Below are positions 1,376 through 32,607 of a DNA stretch of 33,134 nucleotides, piece after piece. The stretch's first letter is position 1, and every line of letters begins with the position of its first letter. Below the pieces are notes generated by a model. That model was given only the letters and a program-made list of their open reading frames with translations, was not told the DNA's origin and did no database searches. The stretch comes from Planctomycetota bacterium (GTDB lineage Bacteria; Planctomycetota; Planctomycetia; Pirellulales; UBA1268), in the NCBI GenBank assembly GCA_016872955.1, contig VGYP01000005.1:1-33134 (forward strand), in the 5' to 3' direction. The position numbers were made by a program, and so were the translations under genes.

Positions 1376-4213
1376 TCAGGGCTCCCGCGTGCCCAGCAGG
1401 CGTTCCTCTTCCTCTTCCTGGATGATGATCCGCGGGGTGACCATCAGCATCAGGCTGTCGGTCGTGCGACCGAGCCCGACGTTCTTGAAGAGCCGGTTGA
1501 TGTAGGGAATCTTCGACAGGATCGGCACGCCGTATTCGTTGCGGCCCTCGCGGAGCCGCTTGATGCCGCCCAGCAGCACGGTGCCACCGTCGGGCACGCT
1601 GACGGTGGTGGTCACCGTCGTGAAGATGAACTCCGGCAGCTGGATCGTGGTGCCGTTGGACTGGACCTCCAGTTCCCGATTGGCCGCCTGGCTGCCCGTC
1701 ACCCCTGCCAGTTCCTCGACACCGGGCACGTCGAGGTCGGCACCGGACTTCTCGTCGGAACTCTTCGACTTCGTCGACCGTGAGCCCTCGAACTGGAAGA
1801 CCTCGACCTTGCCGATCTGCGAGAAGAACGGCACGAGCGTCAGCCGCACGAATCGGCGATCGTTGGAGACGACGGCCTGGACGTTGACGGCCGTGCCCTC
1901 GTTGAGCACCGTGATCACCGGCTGCTGGGCGGCGGCGAAGTCGCCCACCACCGGGGTCACCGCGGTCACGAACGGTCGCTGCCGGGTGTCGGACACGAAG
2001 GCCTGCTGGCCGTTGAAGAGGGTCACCTTCGGTGCCTGCATAACGTTGGACCGCGTGTTGCCCTGGGCGGCCTGGATCAGGAAATAGGCCTCGATGTCGG
2101 AGAGGATCGCGAAGCCGAAGTTGGCCGCCGAGGTGGCCGGATCGGGGAGGCCCGGAAACTGCGGCGGTGTGGCGCTCGCGAAGCTGTTCTGTCGGAAGGG
2201 GATCGAGAAGTAGCTCGAGCCGCTGCGCCGGTACGGGTTCAGGCTCTGGGGCGTGATGGCGCCACCGCCTGCACCTGGCGCACCAGCGCCGCCCGCCTGA
2301 TTCTGGTCCTGGGGCCCGACGGCGACGCCCGGATTTCCCGAGTTGTCGAGGCCGATCACCTGCGACCGGCCGCCGGGGATCGCCTGCAGGCCCAAGGCGT
2401 AGGGTGAGACGGATCCGTTGCCCTGGGTCGGCACCGCGGTCATGTTGAGCGGCTGATTGACGCCGCTCTGGATGTTGAAGTCGAAATCGACGCCGATCCG
2501 CTCGAAGAACGTGTCGTTGAGCGTGATGAAGCGGACCTCGATCGTGACCTGGAGATCCTGGAGCCGCCGCAGCTGCTCGAGCAGGTCGGCGATCTGATCG
2601 TGCACCTCCTGCGTCTGGCTGATGACGAGGCTGAGGTTGGTCTCGAACGGCCGGATCGCGCCGGGGCCACCGACCGCATCCCATGTCTCGGCCGAGACAG
2701 TGCTCTGAATCAGGTCGATGAGGGGTTGGAAGTTGAGTTGCCCGCCGCCTGGCGATGGCGGACCGAATGGGATCGCCGGGGTGCTGCCCGTCGTGGCGGG
2801 ACGGCCACCCCCTTGGATTTGGGCCAGCGAGGTCGCTGCCAGCGCGGCTTCGCCACCGGCCGCCACCTGGTTGATGCCCGCCGGGGCGGGCCCGACCTGG
2901 ACGGCCAGGGAGTTGCGGAGGGCGGCTTGCTCGTAGCCTTCCCGCAGGGCACCGGCGATGCCGAGGCCGTCGGACGAGAAGTTGGGAATCGGCATCACGA
3001 GGTCGGCCACAGGGTAGGTGACGGCGTAGATGTCGCCCTTGACCAGGCGGGGGCTCGTGACCTTGAGCACCTCGTCGCGGACCACGTAGCCGAGGTGCAG
3101 CGGCTCCAGGAGCAGCTTGAGCGCGCTCTTGAGTGAAATCGGCTGGTCGAGGGAGAGCGTGACCGGCGTGTCGCTGCGAATCGCCTCCTGGTCGAGCCCC
3201 ACCATGTCGATGTGGATGGCGACGCCCGCCTGTTTGGCCAGCGAGTCGAGCACGAGCGCGAGCGGCTGCTCGCGAAAGGTCGGCTGCACCTTCTCCTGGA
3301 GTTTCTTCTGGATCGCCAGTTCGGCGGCCGAGATGCGGCTGCGGCCTTCGGCCATTTTTTCCGTGCGGGTCTTGGTCAGTTCCGTCCAGTCTCGCGTGTT
3401 CGGGAACTCGATCGAGCCGGCCATGGGGCGGGCCGAGCGGGCCACGTCCTCGACCGAGTCGAGGAAGCCGGCCTGGTTGCCGTCGTCGATCGACCGCTGG
3501 GCGTCGAGCCGACGGATCGTGCGGCTCTGGGCGAGCAACTGCCGGACAACCGAATTGTCGGGATCGAGTTCGCCGGCCTTCTTGGCGACGGCCTCCGCCT
3601 CGGGGTAACGCTGCTCGTTGACCAGCGAGTTGTACTCCTCGACGAGCAGGGCGATCCGCTGGTCGATCTCGACCCGGCGGGTGCGGCGGCCCTCGATCTC
3701 GGCCTCGACGGTCTCGTTGCGACGTTCGAGCGCGAGTTCGGCGCGACGCTTGCCGGTCACGTCCTCGATCTCGCGGCGGCTGCGCTCGATCCGGCGGAGG
3801 AGCCGGTCGCGAGCCTCCGCGGAGAGCGGCTGCTGGTCGATGCCCGCGGCGACCTGGTCGAGGAGGTCGAGGGCGTCGGCGGGCGACTTCTGGGCCAGTC
3901 GCTTGGCTTCCAGTTGCCGGGCTGCGACCTCGGCCGAGACGCGGGCCAGCAGCAGGCCCTCGGGCTCGTCGCGAGAGGCGGGTGGAAGCGTCGCGCCGGA
4001 GCGCTGTGCCGCCCGACGAGTCGCCGGCTCGGCGGCGGCCCGCTCGACGGCCTCCGCGATCACCCGCCGTGCATCGGGCTGGACGGGGGCGGGCGACGGC
4101 AACTCCTCGTCGGCCTGTGGAACCCGTAGGCCGAGCACCAGAACGGCGAAGATCGTCGCGGCCGTCATGCGGCGAACGCGGCTGCCGGAGACCGCGGCTT
4201 GGGCACGGGGCAT
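1376..4213 (-). CDS. Type II/III secretion system secretin (GspD/PilQ superfamily)
   Basis: 945 aa; signal peptide, coiled coil, N0/STN-like domain (FREQPLALVLDSLAKQAGVAIHIDM), secretin core and the C-terminal motif VPDGGTVLLGGIKRLREGRNEYGVPILSKIPYINRLFKNVG. Confidence 0.93.
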   Translation of the reverse strand: MPRAQAAVSGSRVRRMTAATIFAVLVLGLRVPQADEELPSPAPVQPDARRVIAEAVERAAAEPATRRAAQRSGATLPPASRDEPEGLLLARVSAEVAARQLEAKRLAQKSPADALDLLDQVAAGIDQQPLSAEARDRLLRRIERSRREIEDVTGKRRAELALERRNETVEAEIEGRRTRRVEIDQRIALLVEEYNSLVNEQRYPEAEAVAKKAGELDPDNSVVRQLLAQSRTIRRLDAQRSIDDGNQAGFLDSVEDVARSARPMAGSIEFPNTRDWTELTKTRTEKMAEGRSRISAAELAIQKKLQEKVQPTFREQPLALVLDSLAKQAGVAIHIDMVGLDQEAIRSDTPVTLSLDQPISLKSALKLLLEPLHLGYVVRDEVLKVTSPRLVKGDIYAVTYPVADLVMPIPNFSSDGLGIAGALREGYEQAALRNSLAVQVGPAPAGINQVAAGGEAALAATSLAQIQGGGRPATTGSTPAIPFGPPSPGGGQLNFQPLIDLIQSTVSAETWDAVGGPGAIRPFETNLSLVISQTQEVHDQIADLLEQLRRLQDLQVTIEVRFITLNDTFFERIGVDFDFNIQSGVNQPLNMTAVPTQGNGSVSPYALGLQAIPGGRSQVIGLDNSGNPGVAVGPQDQNQAGGAGAPGAGGGAITPQSLNPYRRSGSSYFSIPFRQNSFASATPPQFPGLPDPATSAANFGFAILSDIEAYFLIQAAQGNTRSNVMQAPKVTLFNGQQAFVSDTRQRPFVTAVTPVVGDFAAAQQPVITVLNEGTAVNVQAVVSNDRRFVRLTLVPFFSQIGKVEVFQFEGSRSTKSKSSDEKSGADLDVPGVEELAGVTGSQAANRELEVQSNGTTIQLPEFIFTTVTTTVSVPDGGTVLLGGIKRLREGRNEYGVPILSKIPYINRLFKNVGLGRTTDSLMLMVTPRIIIQEEEEERLLGTREP

Positions 4214-26595: not shown

Positions 26596-29500
26596 TCAGG
26601 GCCCGTCGGCTGCGAGTCGATCCGCGATCGCGCGGTCCATGAGCAGCCGCAGCGCCGACTTGACGGCAGGCTTGTCGAGGATCCAGCCCGCGAAGGCCTC
26701 TCCGTGGGTGGCGTAGGCATGTAGCAGCCACGTCGGGGCATCCTGCGCGAGCCACGCTCGGAAGACGAGCCAACGGGGGTCGTGTTCACCGTAGACGGCG
26801 CGAGCGACCCAGCAGAAACCGCCACCGCCAGCCCCGCCGCCACCGATCTGGCCGCCGCCGGCGCCGAAGCCGCCGCCACCGATCTGGCCACCGCCGGCGC
26901 CGAAGCCGCCGCCACCGATCTGGCCACCGCCAGCCCCGCCGCCACCGATCTGGCCGCCGCCAGCGCCGAAGCCCCCACCGCCCGCTGCCACGCCCGCGGC
27001 CGTGCCGACGGTCGTGCCGGAGGTTCCGCCAGCGGTGCCGCCCCCGGAAAAGTTGAACTGGGTCACCTGGCCCACGATTGAAAACAGCGGCACCGAGGTG
27101 ACGCGCACGTAGCGGCGATCGGCGGAGACCACCGCCCGGGCGTACAAGTTGGCACCCTCGGGAAGAGTCGTGATCTGCGGCTGATAGCCGACGGCGCCCC
27201 TACCAAAGAACGGTAGGCCTGGGATTGGCGGCCCGACCTGGCCACCGCGGCTCGCCGACATGGCGGCGGCGGTCGTCGGATCGGTGATCGCCGCGAGCTG
27301 TTGAGCGAGCACGGCCCGACTGATCGCCCGCTGGGCTGCGACGTCCTGCGCGACCTGCGCGTCGAGCAGCGGCTCCCGGCGGCGGCCCTCCGGCAGGTTC
27401 ACCGTGAGCAGGTGCTCGTCGGCACCGAGACGGACCTGTCGCCGCAGCGTCTGCTCCCGGTCGGTGCCGCGGTTGATCGTCATTTCGGCCGTGACGGTGT
27501 CGGCTGCCACCTTGCCCCACGAGCGGCGCAGGAGGATTCGATACTCGCCCGGGAAGGCCTCGGTGGCCACGTAGCGTTCGCGATGCGTCGTGCCGTCGCC
27601 GCCCGCGTCGCCGTCGGCCAAGAGCGTGCCGCCCGACGACGAACGAGGCGATGCGATCTCGCACACCGTGCCGACCGGCTCCTGCACGGCGATGTCGACG
27701 TCGGCATCGCCGGTCCAGGAGATGTCGATCACCACGTCCCGGATCAGCGCACGGTCCACCGCTGCCCGAAAGGCCGCGGCGTCGTCGGCTCGCCCGTCCG
27801 ACCGAAGGCGCTCGATCGTCGCCTTCGCCAATCGCGCCGCCCGCGTGGCCACCTCCTGTTGTCCGGCCGGCCAGTCGTACGCGAGCACTCCCGGGCAGGC
27901 CCAGCGGAGGGCGCCGATATCGTCCGTGCGGGCCGCAACGGTCATGGCCAGGGCGTAGGCCTCCCGGTTCGTCGGATCGTTCCTCGCGATTCGGCGACAG
28001 ACGCGGATCGCCTGGGCGTCGAAGCCTGAACGGGCCAGATAGTTGGCCAACTGCAGCAGCTCCGTCGAGCTGGAGGCGAAGTCGATCGCTGAGAGCAGCG
28101 CCCGCTCCACGTCGGCCTGCGGTCGGCCCGCCGCCTCCATCGCGATCGCGAGCGATTCGTACATCCACGACTCCGCGTTGCCGCTGGCGATCGCACCGGA
28201 GATGAGTTCGGCCGCCCGGGCGAACTCGCCGTCACGGCCGAGTTCGGCGGCGGAGACGCGCAGCCGGCCCATGCGATCGGCGGCGTCCTCACCGGACTCG
28301 GATGCGGCCGCCTTCCCGGTCGGGGTGAGGTAGGCGATCACGGCCGCCCGCAGATCCTTGGCGTCGAGCACTTCGCTGGGCAGACCCAGCCGCGTGGCGG
28401 CGACGGGCTTCGTCGCCTCGATGCTGGCAGCCGTGGTGATGACGCGGCTTCGAGGCTTGCTCTCCGTGCGGCCGCGGGCCGACGACACCTGGAAGAGGCC
28501 GCCGGCCAAGGGCATCGGCCGGGACGCGAGCACCGCGTCCATCGCCACCCTCACGACGGCCTTCGGAGCGGGACGGTCGTGCAGCCAGGCGGCGAAGGCC
28601 TCGCCGTGACGTCCGTAGAGATCGTGGAGCCACGCGGGGGCGGACGTCGTGATCCAGTCTCGAAACGCCAGCCACCGCGGATCGTGCACGCCGTACACCT
28701 CGCGGGCCACCCAGCAGAACGCGCCGCCCTGCATTCCGCCCATGCCCATGCCGCCTACCGCACCACCCATGCCACCGCCCATGTTCATGCCACTGTTGAT
28801 GCTCTGAGCGCCCCCGAGGCCGCCGCCCATCTGGAAGGGATTGAGACCCTGGGACGGGTCGATCGGCAGCACGAGATCGGCCACCGGATAGACCTTCACC
28901 ACCAGGTTCTCCTGCGCCTTCTCCTTGGTGGTTATCAGGAGCACCTCGTCCTTGACGATGTAGGCCAGATCGATGGGCGCCAGCAGTCGCTTCATGGCCG
29001 ATCGCAGGCTGATGCCGGAAATGGTGTTTTGCGTGACGGGCGTGTCGATGTCGAGACCCAGGTCTTCGAGCGCCCGGGCATCGATCTCGACGGGAATGTC
29101 GAACCTGTCCTCGATGGCCCGCTCCACGTCCCGCAGCGGTGACTCGTTGAACTCCCAACCCGACACCGGCTTTTCGATCGCCTCGTAGATCTCCCGTTCC
29201 TTGCTCCCCGGCTGGGTGAGGTCAACCGACTTGTACTTCTGCCGCATCTTCGTGATCGTTTGCCACCGTTCGGCGGTGGGGTAGATGATCGGCGGATCGT
29301 CGGGAAAGGCGATCGAGGCCTCGTCGACCTGCTGCAGCGCGTCCATGAAACCCCGCTGATGATCTCGCCTGGTCCGCCAGTTGTGGGCGTCGTAGTCGAG
29401 AATCTGGGCCACGAGGGGGGCCGTACGGCCCACGACCCGGGCCGTCATCGCAATGGGAGAGTTGGCGTAGAGCGACGGAGCCTCGCGGGCAATTTCCTCG

Positions 29501-31239
29501 CCGGCCACCCGCTCGGCCTCCTCGAAGGCACGGGTCGGCGGGTCGGCGCCGATCACCGCCTCGCCGTTGAGCACGGTGGGATATTCCTGGGGCTGGGAAT
29601 AGCCGACCCGGATCCCCTCCTCGACGAGCGCGTTGTACTTGTCGGTGAGTTGCCGGATCTTGTCCTCGCGGCGCTGGAGTTCACCGACGAGCCGCATCCT
29701 CTCGCGACCGATGGCGGCGCGGCGATCGGAGGCCAGATCGCGGCCCTCCTTCTCCCGCAGGCGAACGTCCGCCTCGCGAATCCTCATCTCGATCTGCGCG
29801 AGCAGCCGCTCTCGCGGGCCGGCATCCAGCGCGTCGGAAGCACGGACCTCCTCCTGCAGCCCCTTGAGATTGTCGCGGGCCTGCCGTGGATCGGAGGTGA
29901 GCAGTTGCCGGGCCTCGCGGATCCGCACCGCGGCGTCCTGTTCCATGGCGGTGCCCTGCACCCGGCGGGCACGGTCGATGTCCGCGAGGTCGTCGGCGGC
30001 CTCCTCCTCGAGCATGCCGCTGGGAGCCGGGAGCGGCTCATCGTCGGCGATCCGACGCTGCGCCACCTCGCGGACGATGCCTGCCTCCTGGTTGTCCGGA
30101 TCCCGCCGCAGGGCGGCATCCGCGAGCCTGGCTGCCGATGCGTGGGAACCGGCGGCCTCGGCCTGGGCGGAGAGGGAGGCCAGCGACGCTGCTTCTCCCC
30201 GCACGAGGTCACGGACGGCCGCCAGACCCTCGCGGCCGATGACCGGCAGGAACAATCCGTCGCTGCTGCGGGCGTTGCGGGCGAGTTCCGACAGATAGGC
30301 GTTTTCTGCCACCGGCTGGGCGGCGGGCACGTCGACCGTGACCGGCGTCTTCTCGCCCAGCGAGATTTCGAGCCGGGCGCCCTTGACGGGCCCCTCGATC
30401 AGCACGACCGAGTCGCGGTCGGCCCGCAGCGGTGGCAACCGCGAGGGCAGCATGCGAGGCGGCTTGTCCACGGCCTCGCTCACGAGCGTCGTCTCGCCCG
30501 GCCACGCCACGCGTTGCACGGCCAACGAACCTACACGGCCGCCCGCCGCCTTGGCATCGTCCTCGTCGGTGGGGATCACGAGCATGCCGCCGGTGTTCGA
30601 GGCCAGCGCGGCGAGACACTGCCAGTTGACGGCCGGGCCGATGCCAAGGCTGGAGACGGAAATCCGGTTGGATCGGAGGAGGTCGATCGCTCGGGCAAAA
30701 TCCTCGGGATCCACACCGTTCACGGCGGGCCCGTCCCCGATGTAAACGATCGACCGCGGGCCGGGTCCTTCGAAGCGGGCCGCCGCTTCCTCGAGCACCG
30801 CCACGAGGTCTGTCGAGCCCAGCGGGGTGCGGGCATCGAGGCCGCGGGTGCCGGCTGCCAGAGCCTCGTCGTTCGGGGCGTGAAAACCCTCGGTCAACGG
30901 TGTAGACCCGACGTCCACGGCTGTGATGGCGATCCGGTCATCGGGACGGGCTTTCTCGCGCAGTCCGGCCAGGGCGTCGAGGCTCCTCTGACGGTGGCGT
31001 CCGATCTGGCTGGCCGACGTGTCGACGAGCACCACGATCTGCGTCGGTCCGGCCGCTGCCGCTGCCTTGGCGCGGAGGCCTACCGCCGTCACCTGCGGGT
31101 CGCCGTTCAACGATGGTGCCGATTCCGCGAAACTGACGGCCACGGGTTCAGCGCGAGTTGGAGTGCCCAGGCCCACGTCCAGGATGGCCGCGAGGCATGC
31201 CAGTAGCAGAACCAGCGGCAGGGGCAGATCGGAACGCAT
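26596..31239 (-). CDS. Giant multidomain VWA / secretin-N-domain / CFI-box-like mosaic protein
   Basis: About 1547 aa from the ATG at 31239 (signal peptide MRSDLPLPLVLLLACLAAILDVGLGTPTRAEP). VWA MIDAS (VVLVDTSAS...GSTDL), coiled coil, STN/N0-like segment, Gly/Met linker, FCWVAREVYG module, TPR-like helices, beta-sandwich, secretin-like fragment, Gly-rich repeat, second FCWVARAVYG module. Confidence 0.85.
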   Translation of the reverse strand: MRSDLPLPLVLLLACLAAILDVGLGTPTRAEPVAVSFAESAPSLNGDPQVTAVGLRAKAAAAAGPTQIVVLVDTSASQIGRHRQRSLDALAGLREKARPDDRIAITAVDVGSTPLTEGFHAPNDEALAAGTRGLDARTPLGSTDLVAVLEEAAARFEGPGPRSIVYIGDGPAVNGVDPEDFARAIDLLRSNRISVSSLGIGPAVNWQCLAALASNTGGMLVIPTDEDDAKAAGGRVGSLAVQRVAWPGETTLVSEAVDKPPRMLPSRLPPLRADRDSVVLIEGPVKGARLEISLGEKTPVTVDVPAAQPVAENAYLSELARNARSSDGLFLPVIGREGLAAVRDLVRGEAASLASLSAQAEAAGSHASAARLADAALRRDPDNQEAGIVREVAQRRIADDEPLPAPSGMLEEEAADDLADIDRARRVQGTAMEQDAAVRIREARQLLTSDPRQARDNLKGLQEEVRASDALDAGPRERLLAQIEMRIREADVRLREKEGRDLASDRRAAIGRERMRLVGELQRREDKIRQLTDKYNALVEEGIRVGYSQPQEYPTVLNGEAVIGADPPTRAFEEAERVAGEEIAREAPSLYANSPIAMTARVVGRTAPLVAQILDYDAHNWRTRRDHQRGFMDALQQVDEASIAFPDDPPIIYPTAERWQTITKMRQKYKSVDLTQPGSKEREIYEAIEKPVSGWEFNESPLRDVERAIEDRFDIPVEIDARALEDLGLDIDTPVTQNTISGISLRSAMKRLLAPIDLAYIVKDEVLLITTKEKAQENLVVKVYPVADLVLPIDPSQGLNPFQMGGGLGGAQSINSGMNMGGGMGGAVGGMGMGGMQGGAFCWVAREVYGVHDPRWLAFRDWITTSAPAWLHDLYGRHGEAFAAWLHDRPAPKAVVRVAMDAVLASRPMPLAGGLFQVSSARGRTESKPRSRVITTAASIEATKPVAATRLGLPSEVLDAKDLRAAVIAYLTPTGKAAASESGEDAADRMGRLRVSAAELGRDGEFARAAELISGAIASGNAESWMYESLAIAMEAAGRPQADVERALLSAIDFASSSTELLQLANYLARSGFDAQAIRVCRRIARNDPTNREAYALAMTVAARTDDIGALRWACPGVLAYDWPAGQQEVATRAARLAKATIERLRSDGRADDAAAFRAAVDRALIRDVVIDISWTGDADVDIAVQEPVGTVCEIASPRSSSGGTLLADGDAGGDGTTHRERYVATEAFPGEYRILLRRSWGKVAADTVTAEMTINRGTDREQTLRRQVRLGADEHLLTVNLPEGRRREPLLDAQVAQDVAAQRAISRAVLAQQLAAITDPTTAAAMSASRGGQVGPPIPGLPFFGRGAVGYQPQITTLPEGANLYARAVVSADRRYVRVTSVPLFSIVGQVTQFNFSGGGTAGGTSGTTVGTAAGVAAGGGGFGAGGGQIGGGGAGGGQIGGGGFGAGGGQIGGGGFGAGGGQIGGGGAGGGGFCWVARAVYGEHDPRWLVFRAWLAQDAPTWLLHAYATHGEAFAGWILDKPAVKSALRLLMDRAIADRLAADGP
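26820..26990 (-). repeat. Gly-rich tandem repeat (36/36/30-bp periods)
   Basis: gatctgg core recurs at 26845, 26881, 26917 and 26947; encodes (GGGQIGGGGFGA/GGGQIGGGGA)n on the minus strand. Confidence 0.9.
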
Positions 31240-31284: not shown

Positions 31285-31314
31285 AGCATATTTAGGGGCT
31301 CCCAAACCCGCCAA
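31285..31314 (-). promoter_or_regulatory. Putative promoter for the giant gene-ispD-tyrS unit
   Basis: Minus strand TTGGCG (31309-31314), 18-nt spacer, TATGCT (31285-31290), about 45 nt upstream of the ATG at 31239. Confidence 0.35.
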
Positions 31315-31479: not shown

Positions 31480-32607
31480 GTGAAATCGCCCTTGCGAACG
31501 CCGTGGCGGGATGTGTGGCACGGACTGGCTACCGCCGCCCGTGCGGCGATGCTGGCGGGCCTTTGGTGGCTCGTCCTGGCGACGGGGGGCCAAGCTGCCG
31601 AGCAGGCTTCGGAGCGGTCGTTTTCGCCCGAGGAGCGGACGAATATCGCCGTCTACGAGGCGGGGAACAAAAGCGTCGTCAACATCAACACGAAGGCCAC
31701 GGTGGCGGCGGGCTTCTTTCTCATGGAGGTGCCCTCGGAGGGGGCGGGCTCGGGGATCGTCCTGGATGGGCAAGGTCACGTGCTCACCAACTTCCACGTC
31801 GTGGAAGGGGCCCGTGAAATCCAGGTGATGCTGCATGACGGCTCGGCCCATGAGGCGCGGGTGGTGGGCGTGGATCCGGCCACCGACGTGGCTATCGTGC
31901 GCGTGGATGCCGATCCGGCCTCGCTTCAGCCGGCTGAACTCGGCACGTCGCACGACCTTCGGGTAGGGCAGCGGGTGTTCGCGATCGGCAATCCGTTCGG
32001 TCTCGAACGGACCCTGACCACGGGCATCATCTCGAGCCTCAACCGCTCATTGCCCACGAAGACCGGCCGCACGATCAAGTCGATCATTCAGACCGACGCC
32101 GCGATCAACCCTGGAAACTCCGGCGGACCGTTACTGGATGGCCGCGGGCGGCTGATCGGCATGACGACGGCGATCGCCAGCCGCACGGGACAGAGTTCGG
32201 GCGTCGGCTTCGCGATCCCCGTGGGCACGCTGCAGCGGATCGTGCCGCAGCTCATCGCACGAGGCCGGGTCGTGCGGCCCGACGCCGGGATCGCCCGCGT
32301 CTATCAGTCGGACGCAGGCCTGCTCGTGGCCGCCGTCGCCCCGGACGGCCCGGCCGAACGAGCGGGGGTGCGCGGGTTCCGCGTCGTCCGCGAACGCCGC
32401 CGGCAGGGCCCGTTCACGGTCGAGTTCGAACGCGTGGACCGAGGGGGGGCCGATCTGATCGTCGCGGTCGACGGGCAATCGGTGAAGACAGCCGATGACT
32501 TCCTGGCGACCGTCGAGTCGCGAAACCCCGGCGACAAGGTGCTGATCCGGGTTCGCCGGGAGGGGCACGAACTGGAAATTCCATTGGTTTTAGCGGCTGA
32601 AAACTAG
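31480..32607 (+). CDS. HtrA/DegP-like trypsin-type serine protease with one PDZ domain
   Basis: 375 aa, GTG start; signal/TM N-terminus; catalytic triad motifs TNFHVV, ATDVAIVRVD, NPGNSGGPL; C-terminal PDZ (GLLVAAVAPDGPAERAGV...LIVAVDGQSVKTADDFLATVESRNPGDKVLIRVRREG). Confidence 0.92.
   Translation: MKSPLRTPWRDVWHGLATAARAAMLAGLWWLVLATGGQAAEQASERSFSPEERTNIAVYEAGNKSVVNINTKATVAAGFFLMEVPSEGAGSGIVLDGQGHVLTNFHVVEGAREIQVMLHDGSAHEARVVGVDPATDVAIVRVDADPASLQPAELGTSHDLRVGQRVFAIGNPFGLERTLTTGIISSLNRSLPTKTGRTIKSIIQTDAAINPGNSGGPLLDGRGRLIGMTTAIASRTGQSSGVGFAIPVGTLQRIVPQLIARGRVVRPDAGIARVYQSDAGLLVAAVAPDGPAERAGVRGFRVVRERRRQGPFTVEFERVDRGGADLIVAVDGQSVKTADDFLATVESRNPGDKVLIRVRREGHELEIPLVLAAEN

Follow-up and report, generated by a model that had tools for sequence, protein, structure and literature searches.

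A class-wide VWA protein of the Planctomycetia with secretin-derived pieces, apparently divided at a nine-adenine run in two families

Crateriform pits mark the unusual envelope of the Planctomycetota; to our knowledge, the assembly and control of their secretins are unexplained. The protein described here, a giant polypeptide of the Planctomycetia (hereafter the giant), borders on several known systems. ITIH heavy chains and bacterial VIT/VWA-TPR-DUF2135 proteins resemble it in the VWA domain and flanking module (ITIH H4, HC1); however, it lacks VIT, adds the coil, N0 domain and strip of a secretin, and reaches DUF2135 below threshold only. Secretins (PF00263; GspD, PilQ, pIV and the Planctomycetia-class secretin) find in it homologues of their coil, N0 and one inner-barrel strand pair, but neither the secretin core nor the remainder of the barrel. 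The T2SS scaffolds GspB/OutB anchor the secretin (PMC9239104); the giant would be like them in its proposed role as an accessory periplasmic secretin protein, and differs from them in domain content. The last comparison is with dnaX-type slippage, ribosomal in E. coli and transcriptional in Thermus thermophilus, where a conserved A run leads to a short and a long product, as appears to be the case in giant orthologues of families f22 and f21; in these, in contrast to dnaX, the long form would be the shifted one, the gene codes for an envelope protein, and a downstream hairpin is not universal. Judged by its domains, the giant can best be called a variant built from known domain families, outside the secretin family.

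The window (the whole stretch of 33,134 nucleotides that was analysed) carries the giant as an intact ORF on the minus strand, coding for 1547 aa from an ATG at 31239 or 1572 aa from a TTG at 31314. The ATG, which is residue 26 in the TTG count, is the likely start; residue numbers are counted from the TTG. The features are as follows.

26596-31239, minus strand: whole giant ORF from the ATG, a single chain in 42 fetched loci
31153-31239, minus strand: putative signal peptide, about residues 26-54 (MRSDLPLPLVLLLACLAAILDVGLGTPTR), read by eye from the translation
29995-31137, minus strand: VWA module with attached beta-sandwich/helical part, residues 60-440 (Pfam VWA_3, ITIH profile, fold matches)
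30580-31041, minus strand: Pfam VWA_3 core (E 2e-12)
29215-29994, minus strand: long helices/coiled coil, residues 441-700, paralogous to the N-terminal coil of the secretin (hhalign E 1e-32, model)
28849-29214, minus strand: secretin-type N0/STN domain, residues 701-822, ending in a conserved YPVADLV motif (BLASTP, hhalign, Pfam STN in orthologues)
28720-28848, minus strand: Gly/Met-rich linker, the position at which two other families have a run of nine A's (junction reading)
28525-28719, minus strand: CFI-box-like module 1 (home-made profile, E 5e-38)
27745-28293, minus strand: TPR-like helical domain, residues 1008-1190 (Pfam 1e-4, ten-helix model, Foldseek matches to TPR proteins)
27325-27744, minus strand: beta-sandwich, DUF2135-like, residues 1191-1330 (model; sub-threshold DUF2135 matches in relatives)
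27019-27213, minus strand: secretin strip (strand pair), residues 1368-1432 (BLASTP, hhalign, pIV alignment)
26821-27018, minus strand: Gly-rich repeat linker (translation)
26620-26817, minus strand: CFI-box-like module 2 (home-made profile, E 7e-37)
1376-4213, minus strand: class-type secretin, 945 aa (Pfam Secretin, 5e-22)
about 1760-1954, minus strand: strip of the window secretin (match to the giant strip)
within about 2981-3763, minus strand: coil and N0 of the window secretin (match to the giant coil and N0)
31480-32607, plus strand: HtrA/DegP-type protease, divergent to the giant, a recurrent neighbour in the order

We infer that the giant is exported to the periplasm. It was modelled with AlphaFold as two halves, using alignments of the window protein and orthologues from genome contigs, and in the first half a VWA module was predicted with confidence, together with long helices and a compact alpha/beta domain resembling N0 (mean pLDDT 83). 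A previous sequence-only reading of the window had proposed one chain composed of a VWA domain with an intact-looking MIDAS, a coiled coil, an STN/N0-like domain, TPR-like helices, a beta-sandwich and a secretin-like strip, and all of these are borne out by the evidence given below.

The VWA domain is recognized by Pfam VWA_3 at residues 92-245 (47.7 bits against a cut-off of 27). Among 18 orthologues, S100 and D194 of the MIDAS are invariant (18/18), D98 is Asp and T168 is conserved in 17/18 each, and S102 is kept in 14/18. The domain thus has the DxSxS/Thr/Asp pattern of a metal site, and metal binding is predicted. A profile search against PDB placed the domain next to ITIH heavy chains (H4, E 6e-12), and Foldseek with the first half matched VWA cores of the ArnAB/Sec23-24 type together with ITIH HC1.

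Three pieces of the giant match the class secretin. BLASTP against the window secretin gave two significant matches, one over coil and N0 (3e-14) and one over the strip (2e-12, 46% identity over 65 aa), and hhalign against seven class secretins gave 1e-32 for the coil, 9e-35 (99.9%) for N0 and 1e-21 for the strip; the TPR, sandwich and VWA parts had no match to these seven. By these alignments, coil, N0 and strip of the giant are collinear paralogues of those of the class secretin. In the model, the long helices lie at about residues 446-573. Pfam STN matched seven of the 18 orthologues (best 7e-6) and did not match the window copy. Likewise, Pfam Secretin (PF00263) had no match in the giant, whose share of the secretin C-domain is a strip of 57-65 aa only; lacking the PDGGTVLLGG core segment and all other parts of the barrel, the giant is not a secretin.

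To place the strip in the barrel, the class secretins were aligned by HMM with phage pIV. This alignment extends through the strip start and puts the conserved strip Gly at pIV Gly297, a position obtained by counting along it. In pIV, Gly267 and Gly297 are named as Gate-1 hinges, and residues 292-303 are assigned to Gate 1 and to the inner barrel (PMC8563730). Since by this alignment the strip begins at the Gate-1 hinge Gly, it is inner-barrel/gate sequence; that its second strand reaches towards Gate 2 is an extrapolation. In the model of the giant, the strip forms a hairpin of two strands whose pLDDT is below 50. Giants of the examined f21 and f26 genomes have no strip, nor do the examined f23 giants apart from one (L185, weak), while the secretins of all three families retain it. 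Therefore, the strip is not universally essential in the giant.

In the C-terminal half, the TPR domain has a Pfam match (1e-4) and ten helices with high pLDDT, and the sandwich consists of nine strands, mostly with pLDDT above 90. Foldseek on this half returned mainly TPR proteins and left the sandwich without an assignment. DUF2135 (PF09906, cut-off 22 bits) scored 13.9 bits in the out-of-class locus L191 and 16-18 bits in f21 genomes, where at least two of the sub-threshold matches are located at TPR-sandwich orthologues. The two CFI-box-like modules of the earlier reading are both real (eight copies are 58-71% alike to the first). However, they scored 11.5 and 12.9 bits with CFI-box-CTERM (NF041770) against an NCBIfam cut-off of 40 bits, with nearly the whole model aligned, and because these scores are far under the cut-off our naming stops at CFI-box-like. 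Among 60 sampled relatives such modules are present in 32, all of the own family f1, and they also occur on other proteins; a part in the core mechanism was therefore rejected. One ends an SLBB/Wza-type polysaccharide-export protein and one lies in another Gly-rich protein (L003 on own-genome contig C57; L002 on C568); the module seems to be a mobile cassette, often found behind Gly-rich linkers.

The sequence-only reading had regarded the combination of VWA and secretin modules as unusual and asked for a survey of the architecture across genomes. Matches to the giant were found in each of 60 sampled relatives (35 genera) and in each of 120 genomes sampled from the class; in most of these they span the family architecture, in some only a part of it. 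The giant belongs to the regular inventory of the class as a whole and is no local oddity. Close relatives fall in Pirellulales, as far as the records are named. Outside the class, matches are partial, with two very long exceptions. L191 (1790-11596, 3268 aa) contains VIT (Pfam 4e-25), VWA, STN, FecR, TPR and a DUF2135-like end; it has three matches of the secretin ring-domain type (STN/GspD_N0/Secretin_N), of which GspD_N0 and Secretin_N are sub-threshold, as is its match to zf-HC2, N-terminal as in anti-sigma factors. L192 (3857-10255, 2132 aa) contains VIT (Pfam 1e-25), VWA, TPR and a DUF2135-like end without N0. The order VWA-TPR-DUF2135-like end in both is the same as in the giant, and VIT was matched neither by the window protein nor in any entry among the matches listed (25 families, set A1). 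In our reading, the class protein probably derives from the VIT/VWA-TPR-DUF2135 type and carries secretin pieces in addition. The domain reading behind the claim of an unusual mosaic was accurate, but the backbone is a known one, found in fuller form outside the class. In several Pirellulales genomes there are additional VWA-coil-N0 or coil-N0 paralogues without the TPR half (L069, L072, L070, L073), of which L069 and L072 are standalone VWA-coil-N0 proteins.

The genes that recur beside the giant code for HtrA (within the order), TsaD and a CtpA-type protease. No separate secretin gene came with any of the other loci fetched around it, and a conserved operon of giant and secretin was rejected on these neighbourhoods. 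Co-occurrence of the two is uninformative, because both are ubiquitous in the class.

Had the modules diverged before the radiation of the class, a giant would be expected to resemble the secretin of its own genome no more than those of other genomes. For the strip, giant-secretin identity was 6.6 points higher within families than between families (0/5000 label shuffles). Within f22, the own secretin exceeded others by 7.8 points (2/20000 permutations) and was the best in 6/8; the difference was 9.7 points over 18 genomes (0/20000) and 1.6 points in the own order (231/20000). This test covers a single short segment in 18 genomes, and its own-order effect is weak. Coil and N0 had no own-secretin signal within f22 or within the own order, and coevolution of these modules within families was dropped as a candidate. 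At fourfold sites of identical strip residues, 57/161 own and 289/987 other pairs agree (35% vs 29%). Recent gene conversion of the f22 strip is unlikely, since this agreement is near background, and the match lies mainly at the protein level. Together, the comparisons suggest that the strip coevolves with the secretin of the same genome. Family f24 stands apart: in genomes G063 (L180, L193) and G068 (L279, L278), giant and secretin are unusually alike both in coil-N0 and in strip (50% and 72%; in the second genome 46% and 56%), and the two G063 copies group together in the tree with full support. This likeness, which could come from older conversion or exchange, is the cause of the coil/N0 signal in the all-genome set.

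In families f22 and f21, adjacent ORFs on the same strand with short gaps take the place of the single chain, the break lying between N0 and TPR. A run of exactly nine A's (A9) is present in all 52 split loci of these families, a count that overstates independence as some loci are close relatives, and starts 13-39 nt ahead of the point where the upstream ORF ends. At 51/52 loci the downstream ORF is in the -1 frame and at one (L177) in the +1 frame, and no stop interrupts its frame between A9 and TPR (52/52). Elsewhere in the same 526 kb, with both strands counted, A10 and A11 occur once each and A9 never. At eleven loci the downstream frame is without ATG, GTG or TTG from A9 to TPR, with candidates in many others, and the downstream halves have no strongly hydrophobic, signal-like N-terminus as in the upstream halves, one overlapping ORF excepted. 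Several of the split loci belong to one-contig genomes, so that sequencing error is no sensible explanation. In the tree, f22 and f21 (with f25) form separate, well supported clades, and the codon phase of A9 differs between them; a single origin was therefore rejected, and the state reflects two gains or several losses. Thus f22 and f21 orthologues combine a conserved slippery run with an open downstream frame, as in dnaX, and the pattern is apparently a signature of programmed slippage from which a short product, VWA-N0, and a full-length one would come. In these families the TPR, sandwich and strip of the C-terminal half would apparently be made only as a frameshifted extension at A9.

A universal stimulatory hairpin downstream of A9 was not supported (mean z -0.79 vs -0.20 for control stretches), and strong hairpins 3' of the run were found only in some loci, e.g. 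L179, L264, L268, L270 and L274. Because a hairpin is not general, and exactly nine A's resemble T. thermophilus dnaX, in which transcriptional slippage occurs at nine A's (PMC3711429), we favour transcriptional slippage over ribosomal frameshifting. The slippage survey in that paper covered two Planctomycetes genomes, and neither VWA nor secretin appears in its main text. Runs of seven or more A's are absent from the window, where the gene is an in-frame fusion. Of the 42 in-frame fused loci, one (L043, own order) has an A run of at least seven in the linker; this is an A9, at which slippage would leave the frame. Two other loci of the own order, L052 (7338-11896) and L254, are split at the Gly-rich linker without A9, by sequencing error or another frameshift signal. 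In the f21 loci L188, L189, L190, L199 and L200 the upstream half is without the VWA core, with coil, N0, A9 and the TPR-sandwich half retained.

Our main reading is that the giant is an exported accessory or gate-modulating partner of the Planctomycetia-class secretin, to which we give a probability of about 0.5. Its N0 would join or cap the N0 ring of the secretin, its C-terminal hairpin would pair with or imitate the gate/inner barrel and thereby stabilise or gate the pore, and its VWA domain could bind a ligand or envelope protein through the metal site. Slippage may fix how much short VWA-N0 is made relative to the full-length chain, as with gamma and tau of dnaX, and in other species an in-frame fusion plus separate short paralogues may do so. 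A more specific form is put forward tentatively, with doubts outweighing belief: a gate mimic, i.e. a periplasmic protein with a copied gate hairpin and N0 that coevolves with the hairpin of the pore and renders the pore controlled by a metal-dependent VWA ligand, A9 slippage in two lineages fixing the amount of the gate-bearing form, or at any rate of the TPR half, relative to the short form. A gating, scaffolding or receptor role at a secretin had been guessed before; it gains from the strip coevolution and the shared ancestry of coil, N0 and strip, but the window secretin is no conserved neighbour. The strip-less giants of f21, f26 and nearly all examined f23 genomes, and the low pLDDT of the strip hairpin, also weigh against the main reading.

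Alternatively, the giant might work independently of the secretin as a VIT/VWA-line receptor or sensor in the envelope, with STN/N0 as a FecA/FecR-style module for signalling or dimerisation and a strip that binds a third partner shared with the secretin. The ITIH match in PDB, weak FecR_C matches in 5/18 giant members, and the out-of-class VIT/VWA proteins with TPR and DUF2135-like end, one of them (L191) with FecR and STN, point this way; yet the window protein has neither VIT nor the anti-sigma part, its coil and N0 are clear homologues of those of the class secretin, and its strip resembles inner-barrel sequence that is normally buried in a secretin. We consider such a receptor unlikely, though worth keeping in mind. 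Still less probable is that the matching strips reflect concerted evolution without function, through ancient gene conversion between paralogous segments of giant and secretin. The f24 proteins are homogenised in both coil-N0 and strip, and fourfold agreement is slightly higher in own pairs, as such conversion would have it, but the f22 N0, though longer, is without matching and synonymous sites are near background level.

For the split loci, two independent co-transcribed genes with an incidental A9 would agree with adjacent same-strand ORFs at short gaps in f22 and f21 and with possible GTG, TTG or ATG codons in the downstream frame at many loci. This is very improbable, as A9 is exact in 52/52 loci with the downstream frame open to TPR in all, 11 loci are without a common start codon, and downstream halves are without a signal-like N-terminus. 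A frameshift or assembly error joining two genes in the window, which the earlier reading had named as a possible refutation, is close to negligible: the host assembly is fragmented (620 contigs), but the same in-frame chain recurs in independent genomes of many families, single-contig ones included, and its presence in the 42 fetched loci means that the fusion is no assembly error.

On the main reading, a class-wide giant that apparently coevolves with one strand pair of a secretin is a concrete candidate regulator, and it makes the question of secretin control testable in cultivated isolates. Meanwhile, the A9 site is a clean, well-conserved candidate for programmed slippage beyond the classic examples, and automatic annotation would cut the f22/f21 gene in two and hide its architecture. 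A literature search found no description of the giant protein. A few MAG record titles look misassigned, namely 'Candidatus Kuenenia stuttgartiensis' (L078, L082, L096, L098, L100, L104) and 'Nealsonbacteria' (L130), as these loci carry giants of the Pirellulales type.
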